A stretch of DNA of 33,851 nt, taken from the NCBI GenBank assembly GCA_016196295.1, contig JACPYA010000010.1, positions 1-33,851 on the forward strand. Direction: 5' to 3'. A model generated the notes under the pieces. It was not told where the DNA came from and made no database searches. It saw only the letters and a list, made by a program, of their open reading frames with translations. Origin of the DNA: Candidatus Peregrinibacteria bacterium (GTDB lineage: Bacteria; Patescibacteriota; Gracilibacteria; Peribacterales; Peribacteraceae). The position numbers and the translations under genes were made by a program. Every line of letters begins with the position of its first letter. Position 1 is the first letter of the stretch. Shown piece after piece: positions 7,721-31,358 of the stretch.

Positions 7721-10700
7721 TTATCGAATTGGCCACCCTCCATTCTTTTCAATTACCCCATCGATGTCCTGTTGGAGGCAGACAGTTTCTGCGAGAGCCA
7801 TAGCAACACGGCAGTAATGACGGATATCCTCAGAAGAGAGAGTGCGCCCCTTGCGGTCCTTCAGCCACTTATCGAGTACTTGATACCCGCCTATTTGATA
7901 CTCCCATATTTCTTTGGCAATTCCGACGAACCGCTGCCCGTTATTAATAGCAATCGATTTCTTTTTTTCGTCATATTTTCGAGTTTCTACTTTTGCCGCA
8001 CCGCCTCCTTCAAATTTTGCGATGGGTTTTTCTAACGTCTTGGATTTCAGAAGATGCAGGTCAATAAGCTGTTGGCCAAGTTCTGCAAGTTTCGAAAAGA
8101 GCTTTGCATTCGACGTGATCGGGATACGTGGAAAATCGCTCTTCAAAAATTCTGCGTAGCGATTACGATATTCAGGGGAATACAGAATGGCATAGATGTA
8201 ATAGAAAAACTCCTCGGGATTCGGCTCCTTTTTCAATTTCTGCTTCAATTCTGCGAACACCCCTTCGCTTATGTTCGGCCTTCTCCCTGTAGCTGGTTCG
8301 TCAAAGAGATTTGCAGGATGGGAGTCGGAAGATGGATATATATAAAGAGGATAACAATAAAGAATACCTTTGTTACTATAAAATGTTCTATTGTCAGATA
8401 TATCGGATGTAACGCCGGCATGGGAATAGGATTCATCCATAGCCACTTGTCTCATGGTTAATAAACATCTGTTATCTTCAAACATATTTGGCATAACCTC
8501 ATGTCGTGGCCAATCAACCATCTGGGGTGTGTAATAAATCCAACGCTCGTCAAAAGGACGATAAAGAATTTTCTGAAAGTACGATTGCCAATTCTTATCT
8601 TTTGAAATCCTTTCCCGCGCTTCACGCATTTTCCATCCACGCGTGTCTTTGAGGGAAAAGGTTTGAGAAATAATCTCATCCGAAAGATCTAGATTTCGAA
8701 ACATCTCCATGCGTCGTTGTAGCTCATCTTTATCCAGAGCAATAACAAAACCATCACGTGCGGTAACAATTCCAGTGGAATTGAGCGGAAAAATTTCTGA
8801 AACTTTCCATCCCGTTTCCCAATCATCACGACCTTTCTCCTCTTTTGGAATAAAAAAATAAAATGGCGAATTTGGCTCTAATTTAAGCCACTTTGTATTA
8901 TCGGCATCTTTTTTCTCTAACCATTGATATTTCTTTTCTCGCTCGCCCCACAATTCAGCATGATGTACTTTGCCAGGCAGCTTCTTTTTCCGATTTTTCA
9001 CGAATAACGCGATGGTTACACCTTGTTGGATGTCGAAGACATTTTCATCCTTCCCGCCCTCGGGCGTTTTCTCTTTCTTCAAAGAATTGCCGTGCAGGTC
9101 TAGAACATAAATGTCCGTGAATGTATTCATCAGCGACTGGCGCATGCCGCGAAAAGTTGGATTATCGAGGTAACCATGATTCGTGATCATTCCAACAATC
9201 CCTTGTTCCGCCTGATCGATCTTCCATTGCGCAAAGCGGATAAACTTCACGTAATCGTCACCTAGCCAATGCCTGCGCTCACCAAAGTGCTTCCCATCCA
9301 CCTGTTTGTAATCCTCAATCAGTTTGGTAATCCACTCTCCTTTATTTTCTGAAATTCCCGAATATGGAGGATTTCCCATGATCACCATAATTGGCACATC
9401 TTTTTTCACTTGTGCCGCATGTTTCGATTCTTCAGAGAGTGAGGAAAGATGTGGAATTTGCGTCTGCGAAAGGTTATCCCATTCCAAGGTATTTGTGAGA
9501 TAAAGTTTCGATCGTTCGTCCTCGTTCATTTTGTAGCCAAGTTCCTCGAAGACATAACTCATCTTCAAATGGCCGATGACGTATGGTGCCATCATCAATT
9601 CGAATGCATAGAAATTTTTGAGGAAATGGTCACGGATCATCGGTTCAATTTCTCCGTATTTTTTGCCTTCTTCAGCAGCCAGACTCATCGCGGTTGCAAG
9701 AAATGTCATGGTGCCTGCAGCTGGGTCAAGAACAGTCACTCCACTACTTGCAAAACCGTCGCTTTTCCCGAATTCCTCTTTAAGCAGATGATTCAAAGAT
9801 CTCACAATATATGACACGACAGGCTCTGGAGTGTAGTAGACGCCGCGTCTCTCGCGTTTTGCAGGATCGTAGTGCGCGAGAAAAGTTTCATAGAAATGAA
9901 CAATAGGATCACGACCTTTGCGCGCATGGAAGAATTCCTGTTCGATCTTCTTCAAATTCGATTCTGCCAGCACTTCCGCAATATCTTCGATCATCACTTT
10001 TAACTGATCTGATGGATCTGCAGACGAGAGAAAGCGAAAAACGTCTTGTAGAATGCCAAGCGCATGCGGGATGAGCTTATACGCGTTATCACGGTTGAAC
10101 ACTTTTTGCGTAACGTCTTTATCAAGGAGATTCGGTGTGGTATCGAATCGGTGACGAGCAACAAAAAGCCCGTATGTAATTGTCTGGGCGTACAGATCGG
10201 CGAAATCTTCTTCGGTGAGAGAGGCAATAAGATGCTTTTTAAATGCTTCGAAGAAGCCAATCAGATCTTTTCTGCCTTCGCCTTCCCGCAATTCTTCGGT
10301 AATAACTTCGTCGCGAAGGAATCGTGTACGTTTCGCGAGCTCGATGGCCAATTGTTTGGCAGTGGTGAGGGATGGAATTGAAAAATCGAAGAATTGTGTG
10401 ATTAGGCGTTCGAATTCTTTTTCATGTTCAATAGGTGGTGCCATTTTCAATTTCTCTGCAATAAATGGCCGACCGATTTGTACCTCCATCATCAACGAGC
10501 CCTCCCTATACCAACGGAATGTATAGAAATCTGTAAGTAGCAAATTCGGAAATGTAGACAGGTATCTTTCGAGTTGTTCGGTTTTTTCGATTTTCGCCAA
10601 ATTTTCGCCCGGGACTTTTGCTTCGGTATAGCCGACGATTTTGTGTTTGCCATCCCAAACACGGAAATCAGGGTTGCCAGCATCTGTTTTCTTAGGCAGA

Positions 10701-10852
10701 ACTGTGATTTCTATATTTTTCCTCTTTGTAATTTTCTCTGCCGTATTTTCCAACAATATTTTTAACGCTGAATAATATGATTCTTCACGAGCGTCTCCTC
10801 GCTTGGCAATTTTCGATATTTCGCGGATGTATGATTCAAGTATCTTCTGCAT
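7721..10852 (-). CDS. Restriction enzyme/N6-adenine methyltransferase fusion (type IIG, ISP-like)
   Basis: 1043 residues. The N-terminus carries a PD-(D/E)xK-type nuclease signature: Asp62 in NPDFRVWDG, then Glu77-x-Lys79 in YTEAKVPG. A helical linker leads to GVYYTPEPVV (337-346), SAM motif I DPAAGTMTFL (376-385) and catalytic motif IV NPPY (494-497). The C-terminal 400 residues, with ILYRPFDERWIYYT and FYYIYAILYSPEYR, resemble the target-recognition/C-terminal domain of type ISP enzymes. I see no DEAD-box helicase motifs, so it resembles type IIG rather than full type ISP. One polypeptide would methylate and cleave unmodified DNA. No separate methylase or specificity gene is nearby. It is more AT-rich than the flanking sugar genes, suggesting recent gain as a defence cargo gene. 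Confidence 0.88.
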   Translation of the reverse strand: MQKILESYIREISKIAKRGDAREESYYSALKILLENTAEKITKRKNIEITVLPKKTDAGNPDFRVWDGKHKIVGYTEAKVPGENLAKIEKTEQLERYLSTFPNLLLTDFYTFRWYREGSLMMEVQIGRPFIAEKLKMAPPIEHEKEFERLITQFFDFSIPSLTTAKQLAIELAKRTRFLRDEVITEELREGEGRKDLIGFFEAFKKHLIASLTEEDFADLYAQTITYGLFVARHRFDTTPNLLDKDVTQKVFNRDNAYKLIPHALGILQDVFRFLSSADPSDQLKVMIEDIAEVLAESNLKKIEQEFFHARKGRDPIVHFYETFLAHYDPAKRERRGVYYTPEPVVSYIVRSLNHLLKEEFGKSDGFASSGVTVLDPAAGTMTFLATAMSLAAEEGKKYGEIEPMIRDHFLKNFYAFELMMAPYVIGHLKMSYVFEELGYKMNEDERSKLYLTNTLEWDNLSQTQIPHLSSLSEESKHAAQVKKDVPIMVIMGNPPYSGISENKGEWITKLIEDYKQVDGKHFGERRHWLGDDYVKFIRFAQWKIDQAEQGIVGMITNHGYLDNPTFRGMRQSLMNTFTDIYVLDLHGNSLKKEKTPEGGKDENVFDIQQGVTIALFVKNRKKKLPGKVHHAELWGEREKKYQWLEKKDADNTKWLKLEPNSPFYFFIPKEEKGRDDWETGWKVSEIFPLNSTGIVTARDGFVIALDKDELQRRMEMFRNLDLSDEIISQTFSLKDTRGWKMREARERISKDKNWQSYFQKILYRPFDERWIYYTPQMVDWPRHEVMPNMFEDNRCLLTMRQVAMDESYSHAGVTSDISDNRTFYSNKGILYCYPLYIYPSSDSHPANLFDEPATGRRPNISEGVFAELKQKLKKEPNPEEFFYYIYAILYSPEYRNRYAEFLKSDFPRIPITSNAKLFSKLAELGQQLIDLHLLKSKTLEKPIAKFEGGGAAKVETRKYDEKKKSIAINNGQRFVGIAKEIWEYQIGGYQVLDKWLKDRKGRTLSSEDIRHYCRVAMALAETVCLQQDIDGVIEKNGGWPIR

Positions 10853-10906: not shown

Positions 10907-12247
10907 CTAATCATTGCCGATTCCTCCGTAGTGGATGCCCGAAACGGTGCGAATCTCCTTGGGATCAAACAGGTGCCAGCCATCCAAGAAGACGGCGGGT
11001 TTTGGCATCAGCGAGAGGAGCTTCACAATATCCATCCGTTCGAACGTGGGGTGATTCGTCATGATCACGGCCGCGTCCGCCGTGCGAAATCCCTCTTCCA
11101 ATCCTTTCACGGTCACGCCGAGTTTTTCGATCTGCTCTTTGCGCGCGACCGGGTCGAAGCCCGTCACCGTGCATCCGAGCTTCTGCAGTCCCTGTACGAC
11201 CGGGATCGTGGGGGAGTCGCGCATGTCGGAGGTCTCCGGCTTTCCTTTGAATGCGAACCCCAAGACGAAGACGGAATTTTTCTTCGGATCTTTTCCCGCC
11301 TCCTGCAGAAGTTTCGCGACTTTCTCTACGACATGCCCGGGCATGCTCTCGTTGATCTCCCGCGCGATGCGCGCCAGCTTCGGTTCGTACCCGAATTTCT
11401 CGCCGACTTGCAGCAAGATGAACGGATCTTTTGTGAGGCATGTGCCGCCAACGCCGGGACTCGGTGCGGGAACGTGGTTTCGCTTGTAACCGAAGTTCAC
11501 GGCGGTCGCGAGCTTCACCATGTCGATGCCGATGCACTCGCAGAGCCGGGCCATCTGGTTCGCGTAAGCGAATGTGAGGTCGCGGTAACTGTTGTCGATG
11601 ATCTTGGCCATCTCCGCGGACTCGATGCTGTCTACGTCCACCACGATGGGCGTCATTTTTTTGAAGAGCTGGGTGGCGTACGACAGATCCGTTTCGTTCG
11701 TGAGGCCGCCGATGATCTGCGGCAGTTCCCGCAGTTCCTGCAGCGCCCTGCCGGCGACGAGTCTCTCCGGAGCGAACACCAAGTGAAAATCCTTGCCGGC
11801 CGTGAGCCCGCTCTCTTTCTCTAGGGAGGGCAGAACGATTTCCCGCGTCGTGCTCACCGGCACCGTGGAGCGCATGATCACCAGGTCTCCTTTCTTGAGG
11901 ATCTTCCCCACTGTCTCCGATGCGTTCTTCACATAATCCATGATCGGTCGTCGGCTTTTCGGATCCACGGGAGTCCCGACCGCGATGAAATAGACATCGT
12001 GCTCTCCTTTTTGAAGCGCATCGACGACGACGAAGCCCTTGCCCAAATGCCGGTCCAGAAGCATCTGGAGCCCCTGCTCTTCGAAATGGCTTTTCCCCTT
12101 CTTCAAACTCGCGCGCACCGCGTCGCTGGCATCGATGCCCGTGACGCGAAACCCGATATCCGCGAGCGTTGCCCCAAGCGGCAGCCCGACAAACCCGAGG
12201 CCGATCACCGCGATGCGCTTCTGCTGGATGTCTGCGATTTCCGGCAT
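10907..12247 (-). CDS. Nucleotide-sugar dehydrogenase, UDP-ManNAc/GlcNAc 6-dehydrogenase (WecC) type
   Basis: 446 residues in the UDP-glucose/GDP-mannose dehydrogenase order. The NAD domain has VIGLGFVGLPLG (14-25). The middle domain has FAPERLVAGRALQELRELPQIIGG, which resembles WecC-type enzymes. The catalytic Cys270 lies in PGVGGTCLTKDP, and the C-terminal UDP-binding domain follows with VLGFAFKGKPETSDMRDSP. Such enzymes oxidise C6 of UDP-HexNAc (or UDP-hexose) to the uronate using two NAD+. The residue before the Cys is Thr, whereas WecC usually has His. Ugd- and TviB-like enzymes are also present in this window, so this one likely uses a different sugar. It is divergent from hicBA. The start at ATG 12247 has no SD and no obvious TANNNT box. 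Confidence 0.85.
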   Translation of the reverse strand: MPEIADIQQKRIAVIGLGFVGLPLGATLADIGFRVTGIDASDAVRASLKKGKSHFEEQGLQMLLDRHLGKGFVVVDALQKGEHDVYFIAVGTPVDPKSRRPIMDYVKNASETVGKILKKGDLVIMRSTVPVSTTREIVLPSLEKESGLTAGKDFHLVFAPERLVAGRALQELRELPQIIGGLTNETDLSYATQLFKKMTPIVVDVDSIESAEMAKIIDNSYRDLTFAYANQMARLCECIGIDMVKLATAVNFGYKRNHVPAPSPGVGGTCLTKDPFILLQVGEKFGYEPKLARIAREINESMPGHVVEKVAKLLQEAGKDPKKNSVFVLGFAFKGKPETSDMRDSPTIPVVQGLQKLGCTVTGFDPVARKEQIEKLGVTVKGLEEGFRTADAAVIMTNHPTFERMDIVKLLSLMPKPAVFLDGWHLFDPKEIRTVSGIHYGGIGND

Positions 12248-12898: not shown

Positions 12899-13576
12899 AT
12901 GAGTTTTTTGGATGCCATCGGCCTCACGAAGAAGATCACGCGCCCGCGTCTGGATGCGTTCCTCGCGCGGCACGGGAGCGACCAAAAAACCCTCGAGATC
13001 GGGTGTGGGAACGATCAGTACGGGAAATATTTCCCAAACCGCACGACGCTCGATATCGAAAAGCGTCAGGGCGTGCAGGTAGACATCGTCGCCGACGCGC
13101 ACGACCTCCATCAGATTGCGGATGCATCCTTTGAAGTGATCCTCTGCACGGAAGTGCTGGAACATTTGCACACGCCGCACAGAGCGATCGCGGAATTTCT
13201 GCGGATTCTGAAACCCGGCGGCTTGCTGCTCCTTTCCACGCGCTTCATCTTCCCGCTCCACGACGTGCCGGGAGATTTCTACCGCTACACGAAGTACGGG
13301 CTGCGGCATCTGCTGCGCGACTTCGAGATCATCGAGCTCCAGGAAGAGGCAAACACCATCGAAACGCTCGCGGTGCTCTACCAGCGCATCGGTTTCCAGA
13401 CGACCACGCTGGGACTGCGCCCGCTCAAGCTCCTGTGGTTTATGAAGGCTCGTATCGTGATGCTCTTCTCCTGGATCCTCACGCGCGAATTCGGCGACAT
13501 CCGTCATGACAAAGAAGACCGCTCCATTTTGTGTTCGGGGTATTATATTGCCGCACGAAAACGCTTTTCTGCGTAG
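12899..13576 (+). CDS. Class I SAM-dependent methyltransferase (Methyltransf_11/25 type)
   Basis: 225 residues with motif I TLEIGCGNDQYG (31-42), an acidic strand-2 end in TTLDIEKRQG, motif II-like DIVADAHDLHQIADASFEVILCTEVLEHL and post-motif FLRILKPGGLLLLSTRF. These are the standard features of small-molecule class I methyltransferases. The HDVPGDFYRYTKYGLRHLL segment is common in methyltransferases of polysaccharide loci. The acceptor is unknown and may be a glycan or lipid-linked sugar. It is 30 nt upstream of the CotH-like gene on the same strand and may be the first gene of that operon. Confidence 0.85.
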   Translation: MSFLDAIGLTKKITRPRLDAFLARHGSDQKTLEIGCGNDQYGKYFPNRTTLDIEKRQGVQVDIVADAHDLHQIADASFEVILCTEVLEHLHTPHRAIAEFLRILKPGGLLLLSTRFIFPLHDVPGDFYRYTKYGLRHLLRDFEIIELQEEANTIETLAVLYQRIGFQTTTLGLRPLKLLWFMKARIVMLFSWILTREFGDIRHDKEDRSILCSGYYIAARKRFSA

Positions 13577-13606: not shown

Positions 13607-16330
13607 ATGCGATTCGCAAAGCCCATCATTGGCATCCTTGCCGCTGTCATCACCGTGCAGCTTCTGGGATTTTTATTGCTCGCACTCATCGTCTACCAAG
13701 TAACCCCCAAAAGCATTCTGGCGCGGGAGACATTCATAGGGGAAATTCCGGGGCTGCTTGCGGGCGTGCGCATCCTCGATCGAGCAACGAACATTTTCTA
13801 CTGGGGTCCGCGATCTCCCGAGAAACTGCCGCATTACGCACTTCAGATCGACTCCGCGGATCTGCAGAAGATCGAAGAAAGCCTCCCCAAGAGCCTCTCG
13901 TCTCCGTGGTATGGCAATATCATCCTGACGGAAGACGCGAAAGAATGGGTGAAGGGGACATTCACCGCGGATGGGAAGGAGTATGACGTTGATGTTCGCG
14001 TGCGCGGAGACATCTTCAATCACTGGGCCTACCGCAAAAAATCGTGGCGCGTGCGTTTCGACGGCGGTGTCCTGTTCAACGGCATGAGGGAGATCAACCT
14101 GATCATCCCGGAAGACCGCGGCTGGATCGCGGAACCATTCAACGCCTATCGAGCGAAGCAGTTTGGATTTCTCCAGCCGCCCATGGAGTACGTTACCGTG
14201 TCGCTCAACGGAAGTTCTCCGATGATCTACACGCAGATCGAACAGTGGAGCAAAGAACTTCTCGAGAAGCAGGCACGACCGGGCGATGTGAATCTCTACG
14301 GAGCGGGCGGCGGCACTTCTTACTTCCAGCAGTGGGATGACGTCTTCTCCGATATCGCCTATTGGAACAAGTACGAGTCCGCGGTCGCTCCGCCCCATGA
14401 TTCCTATGAGGAAATGGAAGCATTGCGCTTGCTCTCTCTTCCCGACGCCCATCGTCAGCCGGGATATCAGGAGCGCGTTTCCTCGCTCATCGATCCCAAA
14501 GATTTCACGGACTGGTATGCCTTGAGCTTGCTCTCCGGGAGCATGCACGTGCGTGATTACAACCTTCGTTTCTTCTATGACGTATCGCGAGGCCTTCTGG
14601 AACCGATTCCTTGGGACATTGGCCTCTATGCGCCACGCTCACTCTATGCGCCTCCGGGCAATCCCTTCTTAAACGAGGTCTTGCGCGTGCCGCAGTGGAA
14701 ACTGCAAGCATATGAGACCGTCTGGGCGTACCTTCAAGATCAAACACGAGTTGAGAAGGATCTGGCGGAAGCGAGCAGGCTTCGTTCTCTCGTCGAGCGT
14801 GCGGCGTACCGCGACCCCGTGAAACTCCAGAGCAATCGCCAGGTAAAGCACGAGCTCAACGGCCGCATTTCTCAGATTCGAGACAACCTCGAGTTTCTGA
14901 AAAAAGAATTGTCCCTCTCCGAAGTTCTCGTGCATCAACGCGTTCCGGCCGAGGCGGACCGGGAGCGCGGGCTGCTCATGACGTTTGAACTGACGGCGCG
15001 CGGCGTCAGCCCGGCTCGTTTCCATCAGTTCTCCTTGCCGAAAAATATGGCGGATGCCTGGAAGAGAGGGGAGATCGCTCTCGTGCGCGATGATGGTGAC
15101 GGATTGCTGGAGAGCTCTGATCCTCGACTGTCGCTGTCGCTGCGTGCGGATCCGGATAAGAGCGGACGGCCCGTGCTGCAAGTGCAGAGCGATTCCCATT
15201 CGCTGCTCTGGGTCGGTGATCCGGTCGTGGATGAGCATGAAGTCGTGAAGGTCGTCCCACATACGCTCCATCGCTTCTTTCTCGTCCGCCGCTCGGGTGG
15301 CTCGGCGTTTGCCCGATCCGATCTGCCACTCAATCTCGATATCCGCAACGCCGTCACCGGAGAGAAGGCGCAGGTGTTGCGCGAGGTGATCGTGGATGAT
15401 CGCACTCTTGAAAGCCTTCCGCTCGCCTACGCCAGTCGCTCTTCTTTCCTGGAGCGCTATCCGATGTTCGATGCCGGAGTCGGCAATGAAGTCATTTTGC
15501 GAGGATCGCCCACATTTCTCGAGGATGTGATCGTTCCCTCCGCCGTGAAACTGCGCGTCGAACCCGGAACGACCGTGCTCATGGGCAGCGGGGTGACGCT
15601 GCTCTCCTATGCTCCCGTGCAGATCGTCGGCTCGTCCGCTTCGCGTATCCGCTTTGAATCCGCGACCAGCGGTCATTGGGGTTCGCTCCTGGTGGTGAAT
15701 GCGAAGGAACCCAGCCGGGTCGAGTGGGCGGAATTCGCGGGCGGTGGAGAAACATTGCTCAATGATATTTACGCGACGGGTATGGTGGCGTTCCACGCAA
15801 GTCCCGTGACGATCCGAGACAGTTTCTTCCGCAATTCCCACGGGGACGATGCTCTCAACATCAAATACATTCCCGCAGATCTCGCCCGGCTCCACTTCAC
15901 CGATGCCGGAGCCGACGCACTCGACATCGATATGGCGCCCTCCGGAGTCCTCGAGGACAGTACGTTCCTCATTTCCGAAGGCAACACCGATAGCAACGGT
16001 GACGGGGTCGATCTTTCGTGGTCTTCCGTTACGCTGCGAAACCTGACGATCGAAGGCAGCCGCGACAAATGCATCAGCGTCGGCGAGAGCAGCAAGCCAG
16101 TCATCGAAGACGTGACGCTTCGGCGCTGCCACTTCGGCATCGCCTCCAAGGACGGGTCCGCGCCGACTGTGCAACGCGCGAAATTCATCGGCAACGACAT
16201 CGCGGTCACGGCGTACGTGAAGAAACCGATCTTCGGTCTCCCGACGATGGAGATCCGGGACAGTACATTCGAAGGAAACACCGTAGAACAGGAGGCGCTC
16301 AACGGCGCCACCATTACGATTATTCGCTAA
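13607..16330 (+). CDS. CotH-kinase-family protein with C-terminal right-handed beta-helix
   Basis: 907 residues. One N-terminal membrane anchor (about 8-30) is followed by an extracytoplasmic-type region. The CotH-like kinase domain spans roughly 75-430: VRGDIFNHWAYRKKSWRVRF (132-151) matches the 'RG-S....KKS-R-KF' motif, and DYNLRFFYD (317-325) with EPIPWDIGLY (332-341) corresponds to the catalytic Asp-rich block. After a linker, residues about 630-905 form repeated strands (VTLRNLTIEG, PVIEDVTLRRC, TMEIRDSTFEGN) typical of a parallel beta-helix. CotH proteins phosphorylate spore-coat or other surface proteins. The role outside sporulating bacteria is largely unknown. It is followed 3 nt later by a VTC-domain gene and then DUF4956, a combination seen in other genomes. 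I infer a surface-located kinase or scaffold. Confidence 0.82.
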   Translation: MRFAKPIIGILAAVITVQLLGFLLLALIVYQVTPKSILARETFIGEIPGLLAGVRILDRATNIFYWGPRSPEKLPHYALQIDSADLQKIEESLPKSLSSPWYGNIILTEDAKEWVKGTFTADGKEYDVDVRVRGDIFNHWAYRKKSWRVRFDGGVLFNGMREINLIIPEDRGWIAEPFNAYRAKQFGFLQPPMEYVTVSLNGSSPMIYTQIEQWSKELLEKQARPGDVNLYGAGGGTSYFQQWDDVFSDIAYWNKYESAVAPPHDSYEEMEALRLLSLPDAHRQPGYQERVSSLIDPKDFTDWYALSLLSGSMHVRDYNLRFFYDVSRGLLEPIPWDIGLYAPRSLYAPPGNPFLNEVLRVPQWKLQAYETVWAYLQDQTRVEKDLAEASRLRSLVERAAYRDPVKLQSNRQVKHELNGRISQIRDNLEFLKKELSLSEVLVHQRVPAEADRERGLLMTFELTARGVSPARFHQFSLPKNMADAWKRGEIALVRDDGDGLLESSDPRLSLSLRADPDKSGRPVLQVQSDSHSLLWVGDPVVDEHEVVKVVPHTLHRFFLVRRSGGSAFARSDLPLNLDIRNAVTGEKAQVLREVIVDDRTLESLPLAYASRSSFLERYPMFDAGVGNEVILRGSPTFLEDVIVPSAVKLRVEPGTTVLMGSGVTLLSYAPVQIVGSSASRIRFESATSGHWGSLLVVNAKEPSRVEWAEFAGGGETLLNDIYATGMVAFHASPVTIRDSFFRNSHGDDALNIKYIPADLARLHFTDAGADALDIDMAPSGVLEDSTFLISEGNTDSNGDGVDLSWSSVTLRNLTIEGSRDKCISVGESSKPVIEDVTLRRCHFGIASKDGSAPTVQRAKFIGNDIAVTAYVKKPIFGLPTMEIRDSTFEGNTVEQEALNGATITIIR

Positions 16331-16333
16331 CGC

Positions 16334-17269
16334 ATGCCTCCTCGCACTCCCACAAAGGCCCCGCTCCATCCGCCTTCGCAGCAGGCCTCAGACCAGGTTT
16401 TTGAACAAGAAAGATTTTTCGGAAGTCGCAATGCCGCTGCGGCGAATTCCGCAGTTCCTCGGTTACGTTGGCAGAAATCATCCATACGTGCGCCTTCACC
16501 GCTTCACTTCCGCCGGATGGAACTCAAATACATCCTCCCCGCGCGATACATCGGCCGCTTCATTGATCGCATCGCGCCGTACACGCAGCTCGATCCTTTC
16601 TTGGTCCAAGAGGGGAAGGGACGGACGCTCTATCCGGTGACGTCCCTCTATTTCGATTCGATGGATCTCCAGTCGCTTCGGGAGAAAGACGCCGGCCTTC
16701 TCTCTCGTCGCAAGCTTCGCCTGCGCACATATGAGGAGCAGTTCACCGAGAGCTCCGTGGGGTTCCTCGAGATCAAGCGTCGCCATGATTTCATCGTCTC
16801 CAAAGATCGCCTGTCGCTTTCAGTCGGTCACCTGAACGGGATCGACCCGATGGGACATCTGCTCGGGCACCTGCTCTCGCGTGTCGAAGCGAGTGAAGAG
16901 GTCGCGGCGGAAGCGCAGATGTTGCGCAGTTGGTACAACCTGCAGCCGACCGCTTTGGTCATGTACGAACGCATCCCGTTCGTGGGAAAACATGATCGGA
17001 AATTCCGCATCACCGTCGATCACGGACTTGCCGGAATGTGGAAACCGTCGAAATTGATCGGGGATCTTCCGACGCGATCGTGCATGTCCGGGTACTGCGT
17101 CATCGAGCTCAAATGCAATCACAGCATCCCGGCGTGGTTTCACGATGTCATTCAAGATTTCAATATGAGCAGAACTGCGTACTCCAAGTACGCGATGATT
17201 GTGGCTTCCTTGGAGCCTTTTTCGCTCCTAACGGCGCCAATCACTGCTCGGTACCATACTTTTCAGTAA
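16334..17269 (+). CDS. VTC-domain polyphosphate polymerase-like protein
   Basis: 311 residues. After a 60-residue Pro/Ala-rich, probably disordered N-terminus comes a complete VTC tunnel domain: RMELKYIL (61-68), SLYFDS (104-109), KLRLRTY (127-133), FLEIKRR (144-150), KDR (157-159), YER (211-213), FRITVD (224-229) and CVIELKCN (255-262). These basic and Glu residues match those lining the polyphosphate tunnel of yeast Vtc4, which makes polyphosphate from ATP. The ATG at 16334 is 3 nt after the CotH stop. A start at the Met of MELKYIL (16517) is the alternative if the low-complexity N-terminus is not translated. It is probably cytoplasmic or membrane-associated through DUF4956. Activity is inferred from motif conservation only. 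Confidence 0.82.
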   Translation: MPPRTPTKAPLHPPSQQASDQVFEQERFFGSRNAAAANSAVPRLRWQKSSIRAPSPLHFRRMELKYILPARYIGRFIDRIAPYTQLDPFLVQEGKGRTLYPVTSLYFDSMDLQSLREKDAGLLSRRKLRLRTYEEQFTESSVGFLEIKRRHDFIVSKDRLSLSVGHLNGIDPMGHLLGHLLSRVEASEEVAAEAQMLRSWYNLQPTALVMYERIPFVGKHDRKFRITVDHGLAGMWKPSKLIGDLPTRSCMSGYCVIELKCNHSIPAWFHDVIQDFNMSRTAYSKYAMIVASLEPFSLLTAPITARYHTFQ

Positions 17270-17288
17270 GGGGTTTCTTCTTTACACT
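17260..17288 (+). promoter_or_regulatory. Internal promoter before the DUF4956 gene
   Basis: TTTTCA (17260-17265), 17-nt spacer, TACACT (17283-17288). The ATG at 17297 follows after 8 nt without an SD. DUF4956 may therefore be expressed separately, as a leaderless message, as well as by readthrough from the VTC gene. Confidence 0.5.
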
Positions 17289-17296
17289 CTTTTGGT

Positions 17297-17986
17297 ATGC
17301 AGCCAGTCATCCCAGACATCGGGACACTCACGGGAGGAGCCAATCCCATTCACGTGCTTCTGGCGCTCCTCGGGAGTCTCGCGCTCTCACTCATCATCGC
17401 GTATGTCTACAAATCCACGCACCGGGGACTCAGCTATTCGCAGTCCTTTCAGTTCTCGCTGGTGCTCCTTTCGATGCTCGGCGCTTCGGTGATGGTCGTC
17501 GCCAGCAACAACCTGCTCGCCGCGGTCGGCATCCTGGGCGCATTCTCGCTGATCCGGTTCCGCACGGCGGTCAAAGACCCGAAAGACATGGCGTACATCC
17601 TCTTCGTGCTCGTCGTCGGCCTTTCGATGGGCGCGCAGATGTATTTGGTCGGCATCGTGACGACACTGATCGTCTGCGTCGTGATCCTCGCGCTTACGTG
17701 GATGAACTTCGGCATGACTTCCAAGCACGAGTCGATCATCCGGCTCATGTGCAAGGGGGAGAAAGATTCCGCCGTGAACACCGCCAATTACGAAGTCCTT
17801 CTCGGCAAGATGGCAGAGAATTTCCGCCTGCTCTCCGCGCACGCGCACGGCGACCGGATGGAACTGACGTACGGGGTGCGCCCGCGCAGAGGTTCCACGT
17901 CCCTCGCGCTTCTGGAAGCGATCCGCAAAGAGAAGGGCGTCGAAGACGCGGAATTGTTTGATGCGAAGCATCAGGTGGAATTTTAG
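17297..17986 (+). CDS. DUF4956 membrane protein, partner of VTC polyphosphate polymerase
   Basis: 229 residues with about four membrane helices (roughly 17-38, 53-72, 72-90, 98-136), then a soluble C-terminal domain. The signature GAFSLIRFRTAVKDPKDMAYIL (81-102), with conserved R-F-R-T and K-D-P-x-D, is characteristic of DUF4956. That family is frequently encoded next to VTC-domain proteins. Its molecular role is not established. A channel, transporter or membrane anchor for the polymerase product is an inference from co-occurrence. Here it closes the CotH-VTC-DUF4956 cassette and is followed by a 36-bp palindromic terminator-like sequence. Confidence 0.82.
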   Translation: MQPVIPDIGTLTGGANPIHVLLALLGSLALSLIIAYVYKSTHRGLSYSQSFQFSLVLLSMLGASVMVVASNNLLAAVGILGAFSLIRFRTAVKDPKDMAYILFVLVVGLSMGAQMYLVGIVTTLIVCVVILALTWMNFGMTSKHESIIRLMCKGEKDSAVNTANYEVLLGKMAENFRLLSAHAHGDRMELTYGVRPRRGSTSLALLEAIRKEKGVEDAELFDAKHQVEF

Positions 17987-17994
17987 TTTTTCAG

Positions 17995-18030
17995 AAAACG
18001 TAGGGCCGAAATATTTCGGCCCTACGTTTT
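17995..18030. terminator. Perfect 36-bp palindrome, likely bidirectional terminator
   Basis: AAAACGTAGGGCCGAAAT followed by its exact reverse complement, ending in TTTT on both strands. It lies between the convergent ends of DUF4956 (17986) and the TviB-like gene (18040), so it can serve both. The central 28 bp are identical to the core at 30006-30043. Confidence 0.8.
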
Positions 18031-18039
18031 ATAAATGTT

Positions 18040-19302
18040 TTATAGAGCCCGATATGTTCGTCCCGTTTTTTCAATCTCCTTTCCATCGAGGAGGGATTTC
18101 AGGTCGTAGACCACGCCGTCCTTCTTCACACTCTTTAAGAAATCCTTCAGCGGTTTTCCGATGTACTCTTTGTGCGGAACGAGGAGCACGAGCGCATCGT
18201 AGGGTTGGCTATCCAGCACACCTGGCGTCATCCCGCGGGATTCGATCTCGTCCGGGGCAACGTGCGGATCGTGTACTTCCACGCTGAAACCGAGGGCTGT
18301 GAGGGCAGAGACGACTTCCGCCGCTTTACTGTTTCGGGTGTCGGGGATGTTTTCTTTAAAGGTAAGACCGAGGACGAGAATTCTTGAAGATCTTTCTCGA
18401 TTCGAGAGCATCTCTGCCACTTCAGCTGCCACATAGGTACTCATCCCGTCATTGAGCGCGCGACCCGCGGTGATGACGTGCGTTTTCATGCCGAGCTGCT
18501 CCGCTTTTTCGACGAGATAGTAGGGATCGACGCCGATGCAATGCCCGCCAACGAGACCGGGCTTGAAGGGGAGGAAATTCCACTTCGTCCCGGCGGCCTC
18601 AAGGACCTCCTTCGTCGGGATGCCGATGCGATTGCAGAGGAGCGCGATCTCATTCACGAAGGCGATGTTCAAATCTCGCTGTGCGTTCTCGATCGCCTTC
18701 GCCATCTCCGCGACTTTCAAGGATGACGCGCGGTGGATGCCCGCCTTCACGACCGATCCGTACAAATCGCAGAGGATGTCCGTGGTTTTTTCGTCCTGCC
18801 CCGCGACAACCTTCACGATTTTATCGACGGTGTGCTGCTTGTCACCGGGGTTGATGCGCTCCGGGCTGTACCCGAGCATGAAATCCTTCCCACACACGAG
18901 GCCGGATGCCTTCTCCAAGATCGGTCCGCAGATGTCCTCCGTGACGCCCGGGTAGACCGTCGATTCATACACGATGATCATTCCTTTCTTCAGGTGCTCA
19001 CCAACCGTCTGCGTCGCGGCCTCCACGAGCGAGAGGTCGGGCTTGTTCGCCGCATCCACGGGAGTCGGGATCGCAAGCACAATGACCTCGGCGCGCTCCA
19101 GGATGCTGGGGTCATCACTATAGGTGATGCGCGCCTCCTTCATCTGTGCGTCGGAGAGCTCGCCCGTGCGGTCGGTGCCGCTCTTCAGCTCCTCGATGCG
19201 CCTGGCATTGATGTCGTAGCCGATCGTCTCATGCCCGACCTTGGCAAAGGCGTGTGCGAGAGGCAGGCCGACGTACCCGAGACCGACGATTGCTACCTTC
19301 AT
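18040..19302 (-). CDS. UDP-N-acetylhexosamine 6-dehydrogenase, TviB/WbpO-like
   Basis: The 420-residue nucleotide-sugar dehydrogenase has NAD motif VGLGYVGLPLAHAF (6-19), VYESTVYPGVTED (111-123), LGYSPERINPGDK (143-155) and catalytic Cys255 in GLVGGHCIGVDPYYL (249-263). The SPERINPGD and GGHCIGVDPYYL motifs are those of TviB/WbpO, which oxidise UDP-GlcNAc or UDP-GalNAc to the uronic acid for Vi-type and O-antigen polysaccharides. The product would be a UDP-HexNAcA precursor. It is transcribed divergently from gmd, with facing G-rich and C-rich repeats in the 127-bp gap. A TATACT box lies 9 nt before the ATG and there is no SD. Confidence 0.9.
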   Translation of the reverse strand: MKVAIVGLGYVGLPLAHAFAKVGHETIGYDINARRIEELKSGTDRTGELSDAQMKEARITYSDDPSILERAEVIVLAIPTPVDAANKPDLSLVEAATQTVGEHLKKGMIIVYESTVYPGVTEDICGPILEKASGLVCGKDFMLGYSPERINPGDKQHTVDKIVKVVAGQDEKTTDILCDLYGSVVKAGIHRASSLKVAEMAKAIENAQRDLNIAFVNEIALLCNRIGIPTKEVLEAAGTKWNFLPFKPGLVGGHCIGVDPYYLVEKAEQLGMKTHVITAGRALNDGMSTYVAAEVAEMLSNRERSSRILVLGLTFKENIPDTRNSKAAEVVSALTALGFSVEVHDPHVAPDEIESRGMTPGVLDSQPYDALVLLVPHKEYIGKPLKDFLKSVKKDGVVYDLKSLLDGKEIEKTGRTYRAL

Positions 19303-19429: not shown

Positions 19430-20473
19430 GTGCCTCGCAAGAAAGCTCTCATCACCGGCATCACCGGACAAGACGGCTCCTACCTCGCAGAGCTCCTGCT
19501 CGAGAAGGGCTACGAAGTGCACGGCCTCGTACGCCGGTCTTCCACGTTCAACCGCGGGCGCATCGACCATCTTTTCTCCGACGTCTACCACCCAAATCTT
19601 TCCATCGATCTCCACTACGGCGACCTCAGCGACAGCAACTCGCTCCTGCGAGTCCTCACGAAGGTTCGTCCGGACGAGGTGTATAACTTGGCGGCCCAGT
19701 CGCACGTGGGAATTTCCTTCGATACGCCGGAATACACCGGTGACGTGACGGGACTCGGAACCACACGGCTTCTGGAAGCCATTCGTACGAGCGCGCTGCC
19801 CATCCGTTTCTACCAAGCAAGCTCCAGTGAGCTCTTCGGCAAAGCGGCAACGTCGCCGCAGAACGAAAACACGCCGTTTTATCCTCGCAGCCCCTACGCC
19901 TGTGCCAAGGCATATGCGTACTACCTCACGAAGAACTATCGCGAGAGCTACGGCATGTATACCGTGAACGGCATTCTCTTCAACCACGAATCGCCGAGGC
20001 GCGGCGAAAATTTCGTCACGAGGAAGATCACCTTGAGTCTAGCGAAAATTTTGGCCGGACAACTGGATCACATGCCCATCGGCAACTTGGAGGCGAAACG
20101 CGACTGGGGCTACGCGAAGGAATACGTCGAAGGGATGTGGCGGATGCTGCAACAGCCGAAACCGGATGATTTCGTCCTGGCGACGGGCCATGCCGCGAGC
20201 GTGCGGGAGTTCCTGGAGCTCTGCCTGAAGATTGCCGGCATCGCGTACAAAAAATCCGGAAGCGGCAAAGACGAGAAGTATGTGGATACAAAAACCGGCA
20301 AAACGATTGTCGCGATCGACGCCAGGTATTATCGTCCTGCTGAAGTAGATTTTCTCCTCGGTGACGCATCGAAGGCGAAAAAAATACTCGGCTGGGAACC
20401 GAAAACATCGCTCCCCGAGCTCGCACGACTGATGCTCGAGGCGGACTTCAAATTATTCAATGTGACACTATGA
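19430..20473 (+). CDS. gmd: GDP-mannose 4,6-dehydratase
   Basis: The 347-residue extended SDR has the Gmd-specific N-terminus [18 protein letters not shown] (6-23), the VRRSSTFN loop, [26 protein letters not shown] (131-138) and YACAK giving Tyr156/Lys160. [18 protein letters not shown] is also diagnostic. It converts GDP-D-mannose to GDP-4-keto-6-deoxy-D-mannose, the precursor of GDP-L-fucose, GDP-D-rhamnose and related sugars. Length is typical. The start is a GTG whose product begins PRKKALITG, and no ATG gives a better N-terminus. The downstream reductase-like gene (20571) fits as the next enzyme. The two are separated by a 97-nt repeat-containing gap. Confidence 0.95.
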
Positions 20474-23338: not shown

Positions 23339-25036
23339 ATGAAAACCGCAATTATCGCCGGTGCCGGTCCTGCGGGCCTTACGGCGGCCTACGAGCTTCT
23401 CAAGCGCACGGACATCAAGCCCGTGGTCTTCGAGGCGACGGATGCCATCGGCGGCATCGCGCAGACCTTCAATTACAAAGGTAACCGCATCGACATCGGC
23501 GGGCACCGCTTCTTTTCCAAGAGCGAGCGTGTGATGGACTGGTGGTTCAACATTCTCCCGCGGCAAGGCGCTCCGGCTGCGGATACGGTCGAGAAGCAGC
23601 ATGAAATCGAATATGCCGTCGAAGCAGTGATTGAATATTTATGTCCAGAGTGCATCGACGAAGGACTTAGGACACAGGACGTAGGACAGAGGAATGCTGA
23701 TTTTCCTAAGTCCCAATTCCTAAGTCCCAATTCCTCTATAAAAACAATCAATAAACAGGCACCCGATCCGGAGAAAGACGATCTCGTCATGCTCCAGCGC
23801 CCGCGACTCAGCCGCATCTTCTATCGCAAGCATTTCTTCCCGTACCCCATCGGCATCACGTTCACGGTCGCGAAACGCCTGGGATTCTTCAACACGTTCC
23901 TGATCGGACTCAGCTACCTCTGGCGGCAGATGCGTCCCCTCAAAGATGAAACGTACCTCGACGCGTTCTACCGCAATCGTTTCGGGGACCGTCTCTACCG
24001 CACGTTCTTCGAGGCCTACACGGAGAAAGTGTGGGGGGTTCCGTGCAGCGCCATTCGGGCAGATTGGGGCGCGCAGCGCGTGAAGGGGCTCTCGCTGAAG
24101 CGCGCGGTGGCGCACGCGGTGAAAGACCTGCTCAGTTCCGACTTCAAGAAGGCGCAAGCGGAGCGCGAGACCAGCCTCATCACGCGCTTCTTCTACCCGA
24201 AGTTCGGTCCCGGGCAGATGTGGGAGACCGTGACGAAACATGTGAGAGCCTGCGGGGGCGAAGTGCGCATGAAGCGGCGCATCAGCGGGGTGCATCTGCA
24301 GGGGAACGAAGTGATTGCGGTGACGGTCGAGAACGTTGAGACGGGCAAAACAGAGCGCATGCCATGCGATTACTTCTTCTCGACGATGCCGATCAAACAC
24401 CTCGTCGGGATGACGACGCCGCATCCTTCCGCGAAGGTCGTGGAGGTCGCCGAGGGGCTCCAGTACCGCGACTTCCTGACTGTCGGGCTGCTGCTTCGCA
24501 AGCTCCATGTGCAGGAAAAAGGAAAAAAGCCCCAGGTCGATGTGCCGGATAACTGGATTTACATCCAGGAAGGCCGCGTGCGCGTGGGCCGCGTGCAGAT
24601 TTTCAACAACTGGAGCCCCTACATGGTGGCGGATCGAAAAAATACGATTTGGATCGGCCTCGAGTACTTCGTGAACGAGGGAGGGGACCTGTGGGTGATG
24701 CCGGACTGGGACCTGATCGCGCTCGGGATCCGCGAGATGGAACAGATCGGCTTTCTGAACAAAGAAGATGTCCTTGATGCCTGTGTGCTGCGCATGCCCA
24801 AGGCCTACCCCGCCTACATCGGCAGCTACGACCAGCTCCACGTCGTGCGCGACTACGTGAATACGATTCCGAATTTGTTCCTGATCGGCCGAAACGGCAT
24901 GCATCGCTACAACAACCAAGATCACAGCATGCTCGCGGCCATGACCGCGGTCGATAACATCCTCGCGGGGCAGAGGGACAAATCAAATCTGTGGGACATC
25001 AACCTTGATATGGTCTACCACGAGGAGAAGAAGTAA
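23339..25036 (+). CDS. FAD/NAD(P)-binding oxidoreductase, amine-oxidase/UDP-galactopyranose-mutase-like
   Basis: The 565-residue protein has an N-terminal ADP-binding motif [14 protein letters not shown] (8-21) with the acidic FEATDAIGG following, and [16 protein letters not shown] (about 50-65), the second flavin-contact motif of UGM/protoporphyrinogen-oxidase-like proteins. The C-terminal flavin loop is [20 protein letters not shown]. These proteins are common in polysaccharide loci, often near gtrA and glycosyltransferases, but their reaction is mostly unknown and UGM activity cannot be assumed. Residues about 108-134 (GLRTQDVGQ...SQFLSPNSS) are encoded by an inserted inverted tandem repeat, without frameshift. 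The ORF is otherwise intact. Confidence 0.8.
23661..23739 (+). repeat. In-frame inverted tandem repeat (GGACTTAGGAC family), copy 2
   Basis: The left arm has repeats AAGGACTTAGGAC, ACAGGAC, GTAGGACAGAGG. The right arm has two units of CCTAAGTCCCAATT. The arms are imperfectly complementary around GAATGCTGATTTT. The element is translated inside the FAD oxidoreductase as a peptide similar to that of copy 1 at 22456-22522. Confidence 0.8.
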
Positions 25037-30047: not shown

Positions 30048-31358
30048 TTATTCGATTCCGATCCCATGATACGTGAGACCCGCCGCCTTCACTTCCGCCG
30101 GTTCATACACATTGCGGCCATCGAACAGGTCCTTCCCTTTCATCGCCTGCTTGAGTTCGCCGAGGTCGATGCCGCGGAAGAGGTCCCACTCTGTGAGGAG
30201 CACCACCGCATCGGCGCCTTTGGCCGCCTCCATGGGCGAGCCGACGAACTGCACCGCATCGGGGAGGAGCTTTCTGGCATTGTCCATGGCAAAGGGATCG
30301 TGCGTCGAGACGGCGTGGCCCGCATCGATTAGCATCGGGATGAGATCGAGGCTTGGGGCCTCGCGCATGTCGTCGGTCTTTGGTTTGAAGCTGAGGCCCA
30401 GGACCCCGACACGCGCTTTCTTCGGGAGGGCTTTCAAGATTTTCTCGAAGAAGCGATGACGCTGCCGCGCGTTAATGCGGTCCGTTGCCTCGATGATGCT
30501 GAGATCAAGATTCAATTCTTTGGCGGTGGCCATCAGCGCCTTCACGTCCTTCGGGAAACAACTGCCGCCGTAGCCGATGCCGGCGTGCAGGAAGCGCGGG
30601 CCGATACGGCTATCGAGCCCCATGCCGAGTGCAAGATCGCGGATGTCCCCCCCCGTCACCTCGCAGAACTCAGTCAGCATATTGATGAAGCTGATTTTCG
30701 TCGCGAGGAAGGCGTTGCTCGCGTACTTTACGATCTCCGCGCTCTCACGGCTCATGAAGACGAGGGGTTTGCCCACTCTCGTGATCGGCCGATAGAGCTC
30801 CTCCATCAATTTCTTCGCCTCGGGGTCGTGATTCACGCCGACGATGATGCGGTCTGGCATCAGCGTGTCCGTCACGGCCATGCCCTCGCGGAGGAACTCC
30901 GGGTTACTGACAACGGGAATCAAAAAATTCTTTCCGCGCTTCGCAAGAATCTTTGCGATCTCCTGCTCACACTTCTTGCCCGTGCCGACGGGCACGGTCG
31001 ATTTATTCACGAAGACGATGCTCCGGTCCGCATGCTCCGCGACGGTCTCCATCACTTTGAAGATCGCGCGCAGGTCGGCCTGGTGATTTTCCCCCTGCGG
31101 CGTTGCGACCGCCGAGAAGACGATCTGCACGTGGGGGAGAATATCGGTGAGCTTTGTTGTGAACGAGAGAAGTCCTGTTTTGAGGCCGCGTTGAATCAGC
31201 TCTTCCAAGCCCGGCTCGTAGATGGGGCTGACGCCGGATTTGAGTTTTTCGACCTTCACCTCGTCGATATCGACGCCTGTGACATGGTGCCCCAGCTCGG
31301 CGAAACACGCTGCGGAGACGAGGCCGACGTACCCTGTGCCGACAACGGCAATTTTCAT
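30048..31358 (-). CDS. ugd: UDP-glucose 6-dehydrogenase
   Basis: The 436-residue protein has NAD motif VVGTGYVGLVSAACFA (5-20), KSTVPVGTG (119-127), SNPEFLREGMAV (151-162), the K-Y-SNAFLATKISFIN segment (about 211-226) and catalytic Cys267 in GYGGSCFPKDVKAL (262-275). The C-terminal GLSFKPKTDDMREAPS and YHGIG ending are those of class I Ugd/TuaD enzymes. It oxidises UDP-glucose to UDP-glucuronate with two NAD+. It is followed by a strong terminator and the UDP-GlcA epimerase. A TAAACT box lies 9 nt before the ATG at 31358 and there is no SD. Confidence 0.95.
   Translation of the reverse strand: MKIAVVGTGYVGLVSAACFAELGHHVTGVDIDEVKVEKLKSGVSPIYEPGLEELIQRGLKTGLLSFTTKLTDILPHVQIVFSAVATPQGENHQADLRAIFKVMETVAEHADRSIVFVNKSTVPVGTGKKCEQEIAKILAKRGKNFLIPVVSNPEFLREGMAVTDTLMPDRIIVGVNHDPEAKKLMEELYRPITRVGKPLVFMSRESAEIVKYASNAFLATKISFINMLTEFCEVTGGDIRDLALGMGLDSRIGPRFLHAGIGYGGSCFPKDVKALMATAKELNLDLSIIEATDRINARQRHRFFEKILKALPKKARVGVLGLSFKPKTDDMREAPSLDLIPMLIDAGHAVSTHDPFAMDNARKLLPDAVQFVGSPMEAAKGADAVVLLTEWDLFRGIDLGELKQAMKGKDLFDGRNVYEPAEVKAAGLTYHGIGIE

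Follow-up and report, generated by a model that had tools for sequence, protein, structure and literature searches.

The window analysed here, meaning the whole stretch of 33,851 nucleotides, belongs to a genome assembly of 1.13 Mb in 84 contigs (completeness 86%; listed genomes of the same phylum measure 0.5-1.4 Mb). It contains three consecutive plus-strand genes. The first (13607..16330, +) encodes a protein of 907 residues that combines an N-terminal membrane anchor, a CotH fold and a C-terminal right-handed β-helix, as recognized by Pfam, AlphaFold and Foldseek. The second (16334..17269, +; start uncertain) encodes a VTC-domain protein, a predicted polyphosphate polymerase (PF09359, E = 7e-34, residues 61-293), and the third (17297..17986, +) a DUF4956 membrane protein (PF16316, E = 7e-12, residues 28-147). 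The Pfam profile search thus recovered all three families where the first-pass annotation had placed them. A class I SAM methyltransferase (12899..13576, +; Methyltransf_11, E = 3e-14) lies 30 bp upstream of the CotH gene and is probably the first gene of the run; at another locus of the same family, L014, a methyltransferase-cluster gene also directly precedes CotH. Downstream of the trio, a 16-pair hairpin (17995..18030, no strand assigned; -27.4 kcal/mol, z -7.4), spotted by reading the sequence and then folded, separates the trio from a convergent nucleotide-sugar dehydrogenase gene and is likely a bidirectional terminator closing the trio. Promoter and terminator scans returned sites no more numerous than in shuffled sequences.

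The placement of the trio within a polysaccharide locus, also part of the first-pass annotation, was upheld by Pfam annotation of the window and by a survey of flanking genes. The 34-kb window carries three members of the UDP-glucose/GDP-mannose dehydrogenase family (10907-12247, 18040-19302 and 30048-31358, all on the minus strand). A GDP-mannose 4,6-dehydratase is encoded at 19430-20473 (+; TIGR01472, 532 bits against a cut-off of 415), which suggests a deoxy-sugar in the polymer. A flavoprotein at 23339-25036 (+) matches NCBIfam PRK07208, a family entry without a function name, far above its cut-off, and a type ISP restriction-modification enzyme (PF18135, E = 6e-94) is located within the polysaccharide locus at 7721-10852 (-).

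The tunnel domain of the VTC protein spans 16514..17212 (+). Searched against solved structures, the VTC profile matched Vtc4 best (E = 7e-22), and the same search with the window sequence alone gave no match. Residues R129, R131, K148, K157, R213 and R225 correspond to R264, R266, K281, K294, R361 and R373 of Vtc4 and are invariant in 38 sequences, so that all six alignable basic residues of Vtc4 are present, in agreement with the tunnel-type basic motifs initially read from the sequence. E258, K260, S284 and K285 are likewise invariant in the VTC alignment; the C-terminal part of Vtc4 did not align, and these acidic and lysine residues may be the counterparts of Vtc4 E426, K455 and K458. The true start codon is uncertain: conservation sets in near 16514, and starting from the listed ATG (16334) would place about 60 non-conserved residues in front of the domain. 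At L014 (9822-9913), the conserved LHFRR.E.KY start region is found without a preceding ATG, GTG or TTG. By hydropathy, the VTC protein has no transmembrane segments and the DUF4956 protein has four. The pair resembles the yeast VTC complex (Vtc4 with Vtc1-3) in having a tunnel domain with aligned basic residues and a membrane part encoded alongside. Unlike the yeast complex, it lacks an SPX domain and has its membrane part as a separate, MgtC-like protein, and its polyphosphate synthesis is a prediction.

The DUF4956 protein carries the characteristic motif of its family, GAFSLIRFRTAVKDPKD, around residues 81-97, which together with the PF16316 match bears out its initial assignment. In the signature region (17528..17587, +), G78, G81, A82, S84, R87, F88, R89 and K93 are invariant in a 43-sequence alignment. 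The AlphaFold model (pLDDT 82) predicts a multi-pass membrane part followed by an ACT-like C-terminal domain, the arrangement expected of a DUF4956/MgtC-like protein. Foldseek matched it to the MgtC C-terminal domain (2lqj) and to ACT domains (E about 0.01, probability near 1), and no relative of solved structure was found by sequence search. The protein therefore shares with MgtC/SapB proteins the membrane helices and the subsequent ACT-like domain, along with a weak profile match, whereas its RFRT..K signature and its near-constant VTC partner are its own. MgtC proteins are known as regulators and not as polymer channels.

The CotH domain of the first protein (PF08757, E = 5e-16, residues 130-426) scores 59.5 bits against a gathering score of 23.8, and its model adopts a kinase-like fold that matches the CotH kinase 5jda (Foldseek, E = 9e-13), with only moderate AlphaFold confidence for this part. 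A Kyte-Doolittle window placed a single transmembrane anchor at residues 2-34 (13610..13708, +); basic residues (MRFAK) precede the hydrophobic stretch, and the N-terminus is probably inside. The initial description of a membrane-anchored CotH-like protein with an added C-terminal β-helix is hence accurate, the β-helix being also recognized by Pfam (PF13229, E = 3e-07, residues 793-897). The extension of kinase activity to this protein fared less well. The equivalents of Asp228 and Asp251 of Bacillus subtilis CotH were located by counting back from the aspartate of the PWD motif with the spacing of 5jd9. Asp251 is kept as Asp337 (14615..14617, +), but the position of the catalytic Asp228 is occupied by His314 (14546..14548, +). 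The residue at this position is His in 22 of the 23 CotH–β-helix proteins examined and Glu in the remaining one (L018). At the corresponding NxDS or GN-D motif, the CotHs of Bacillota cassettes do have an Asp; this was read by motif and not by alignment column, where the Asp of most of them falls one column off (the 'DS' rows). Because the catalytic Asp is replaced by His in nearly the whole set, the kinase claim for the window protein is weakened on sequence grounds. The window protein has the fold and Asp337 in common with the Bacillus spore-coat kinase (5jd9/5jda), whereas His at the Asp228 position, the membrane anchor, the β-helix fusion and the absence of a sporulation context set it apart.

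It could nevertheless be argued that CotH is an active extracytoplasmic kinase acting on a surface protein or glycan, in which the His is tolerated and exported polyphosphate replaces ATP as the donor. The clear CotH fold and the retained Asp337 are compatible with this, a neighbouring polyphosphate maker could supply a donor where ATP is scarce, and the His is held constant instead of drifting, as would be expected if it were used. However, we know of no polyphosphate-dependent CotH. Three β-helix relatives (L018, L020 and L044) have lost the Asp337 position or align ambiguously there, and in 9 of the 23 proteins the stretch from the His to the Asn319 position is devoid of Asp. The D228Q substitution inactivates B. 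subtilis CotH, in which D251A is also treated as inactive (PMC7821199). We consider an active kinase unlikely.

The β-helix itself extends past the Pfam span. It covers residues ~630-900 (15494..16306, +) in the AlphaFold model, with high confidence (pLDDT mostly >90). Fourteen of its residues are identical in all 23 sequences: D748, D770, D773, D775, D799, D802, D820, K821, S824, G826, E827, K848, D849 and K872. The strands that bear them start about 22 residues apart in the predicted secondary structure, from which we read that they probably stack on one face of the helix. Foldseek matched the domain to the alginate lyase 6kfn (E = 9e-5), AlgE4, AlgG and polygalacturonases, and also to the adhesin PfbA; the fold is thus similar to those of polysaccharide lyases, epimerases and GH28 enzymes. 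Like GH28, PL6 and other alginate lyases and AlgG/AlgE, the window domain is a parallel β-helix whose consecutive coils bear charged residues, but none of the catalytic sets of GH28, PL6, AlgG or AlgE was matched in it. A GH28 polygalacturonase (NTD, DD, GHG and RIK motifs) was considered and rejected, as only an NGD and one Asp of the DD motif were found in a weak alignment with 1k5c (E = 0.003), in which the second DD Asp corresponds to Lys821 and the GHG His is missing.

The proposal that the β-helix serves as a binding scaffold is possible, but the 14 invariant residues, Asp, Lys and Glu among them, are more reminiscent of a catalytic or metal-binding site. β-Helices often have stacked Asp residues, which can coordinate calcium. 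In a non-catalytic scaffold, the conserved acidic and basic residues might hold calcium or shape the helix, and the match to PfbA is in line with such a role. On the other hand, 14 invariant and mostly charged residues on consecutive coils, including three Lys and one Glu, exceed structural need, and the catalytic coils of GH28 align, albeit weakly (the 1k5c alignment), with the invariant stretch. We therefore regard a non-catalytic binding scaffold as quite improbable. Because the catalytic Asp of the CotH domain has been replaced while these 14 residues are invariant, the β-helix is probably the working part of the fusion protein, as judged from its conservation.

The three genes form a real conserved cassette. 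Searches of 145 genomes of the same phylum detected VTC in 12, CotH in 10 and DUF4956 in 12. VTC and DUF4956 occur together in 11 of these genomes (Fisher P = 1e-14), VTC and CotH in nine (P = 4e-11), and CotH and DUF4956 in ten (P = 8e-14), P values that overstate independence since the counts are over related genomes. In one genome (G109), the Pfam CotH lies ~42 kb from VTC, and the CotH of another (G114) was found by a custom profile only. An independent scan seeded by DUF4956 yielded 80 loci in other bacteria, mostly Bacillota, with several short contigs; VTC was present at 78 of the 80, in keeping with the earlier statement that DUF4956 often neighbours VTC, and CotH at 57. Linkage persists while the gene order varies, and in several loci, such as L016, the genes abut or overlap.

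The window trio is a distinct variant of this cassette, belonging to a clade with a CotH–β-helix fusion that is found in four phyla. The neighbourhood survey proposed with the first-pass annotation showed that the trio is conserved elsewhere, and all 23 CotH–β-helix proteins, across these phyla, lie beside VTC and DUF4956. At L129, VTC and DUF4956 adjoin a CotH without β-helix, and several kb separate them from the β-helix copy. A profile of the β-helix domain gave 14 strong matches among 380 same-phylum genomes and further matches in the phyla of L044 and L040; in 199 genomes of the L032 phylum (Elusimicrobiota), the match of L032 itself was the only one. In a quick tree of the CotH domain, the β-helix CotHs and five same-phylum CotHs without β-helix form one clade (SH-aLRT 96). 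The β-helix label requires six changes on this tree, in which long branches were flagged as unsure, and these changes are best read as one gain of the domain followed by several losses. Second CotH copies without β-helix occur near the fused copy at L014 (5418-7112), L128 (9870-11540) and L129 (1419-2663), which suggests duplication and loss. Glycosyltransferases, epimerases, methyltransferases and nucleotide-sugar enzymes are, by raw count, the commonest families among the 116 genes flanking 22 β-helix loci, and UDP-sugar dehydrogenases are also found among the neighbours.

CotH, poly-phosphate polymerase, DUF4956 and DUF4832 genes have been reported contiguous with the Pel operon (PMC7112168), and a Clostridium perfringens locus with VTC and CotH genes has been described (PMC2879425). 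The accessory cassette is known from streptococci, clostridia and bifidobacteria (PMC7112168, PMC12345266). In the latter study, each gene of the trio was deleted in Streptococcus intermedius: loss of DUF4956 led to more Pel and loss of CotH to less Pel, either deletion reduced aggregation in artificial sputum medium by >50%, and the VTC mutant still aggregated, with no aggregation phenotype under the conditions tested. The earlier remark that no function is known for the combined cassette is thus largely true, although the cassette itself was already in the literature as an accessory set of Pel, together with the phenotypes of deletions (PMC7112168, PMC12345266).

The window cassette has the same three families side by side next to polysaccharide genes. 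The known cases, however, adjoin pelDEADAFG, with FN3 in the CotH of S. intermedius, whereas the window and its clade lack PelG and have a β-helix, with His in place of the catalytic Asp. Membership of the window cassette in a Pel locus was ruled out by searches for PelG (PF16933). The 12 same-phylum trio genomes, including that of the window (86% complete), and three other genomes with the β-helix variant gave no match over the family cut-off. Among a further 50 trio genomes (almost all Bacillota), such a match was seen in only 9. Many of the surveyed genomes are draft or metagenome assemblies, in which a missing PelG may sometimes reflect a gap. PelG above the cut-off is also missing from isolates, among them Evansella caseinilytica (L029, which yielded no VTC) and Paenibacillus lactis (L080), and from the genome of a Clostridioides difficile strain (L090) that carries an Asp-type trio. 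Because of this distribution of PelG, the cassette is not Pel-specific. The spread of the trio beyond Pel, the β-helix fusion clade, and the His in place of the catalytic Asp together with 14 invariant β-helix residues are new.

The deletion phenotypes also bear on whether the three proteins belong together. VTC and DUF4956 could constitute a separate phosphate-storage or -sensing pair, with the CotH–β-helix surface protein merely encoded in the same operon. In about a quarter of the 80 loci, VTC and DUF4956 occur with no CotH found nearby, although some contigs are short, and in the S. intermedius study (PMC12345266) a phenotype followed deletion of CotH and none followed deletion of VTC. Against this stand the presence of both partners beside every β-helix CotH in four phyla, the linkage that withstands changes in gene order, and the abutting or overlapping genes. 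Such independence appears rather unlikely.

We tentatively favour, with a confidence somewhat short of even, a conserved envelope module that serves a surface polysaccharide. The VTC protein would make polyphosphate from ATP at the cytosolic face, and DUF4956 would be its membrane partner, controlling the product or passing it on, so that the pair may work as the yeast VTC complex does, but in two pieces. The exported and membrane-anchored CotH–β-helix protein would be the outer part, in which the CotH fold may no longer be an ordinary kinase and the β-helix, with its fixed row of Asp and Lys, may act on polysaccharide. We infer this joint action because the trio is linked; because VTC best matches Vtc4 and PPK1 is missing in each of the 12 same-phylum trio genomes; because DUF4956 is MgtC- and ACT-like; and because the β-helix combines invariant residues, a fold like that of polysaccharide enzymes and sugar-gene neighbours. 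The altered Pel amount and aggregation upon deletion of DUF4956 or CotH in S. intermedius, as reported in PMC12345266, also argue for it, whereas the absence there of an aggregation phenotype for VTC counts against it. So do the regulatory nature of MgtC proteins, the moderate confidence of the CotH model and the literature searched, in which no demonstration of the activity of any bacterial VTC protein was found. A bolder possibility, which we consider doubtful, is a new type of exported enzyme, with the CotH fold rebuilt around the invariant His and an active site in the β-helix, that would tailor the surface polysaccharide with phosphate from VTC and its MgtC-like partner.

The trio is much more widespread than Pel loci, contrary to its latest experimental study (PMC12345266), whose analyses, of unspecified scope, detected the arrangement of three genes at Pel loci only, and this changes the functions that can be considered for it. 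The β-helix clade provides a natural set of CotHs that lack the catalytic Asp and invariably neighbour a gene resembling those of polyphosphate polymerases. Should the VTC protein be active, these small-genome bacteria would have no other candidate polyphosphate polymerase among the enzymes searched, which included PPK1 (absent) but not PPK2.
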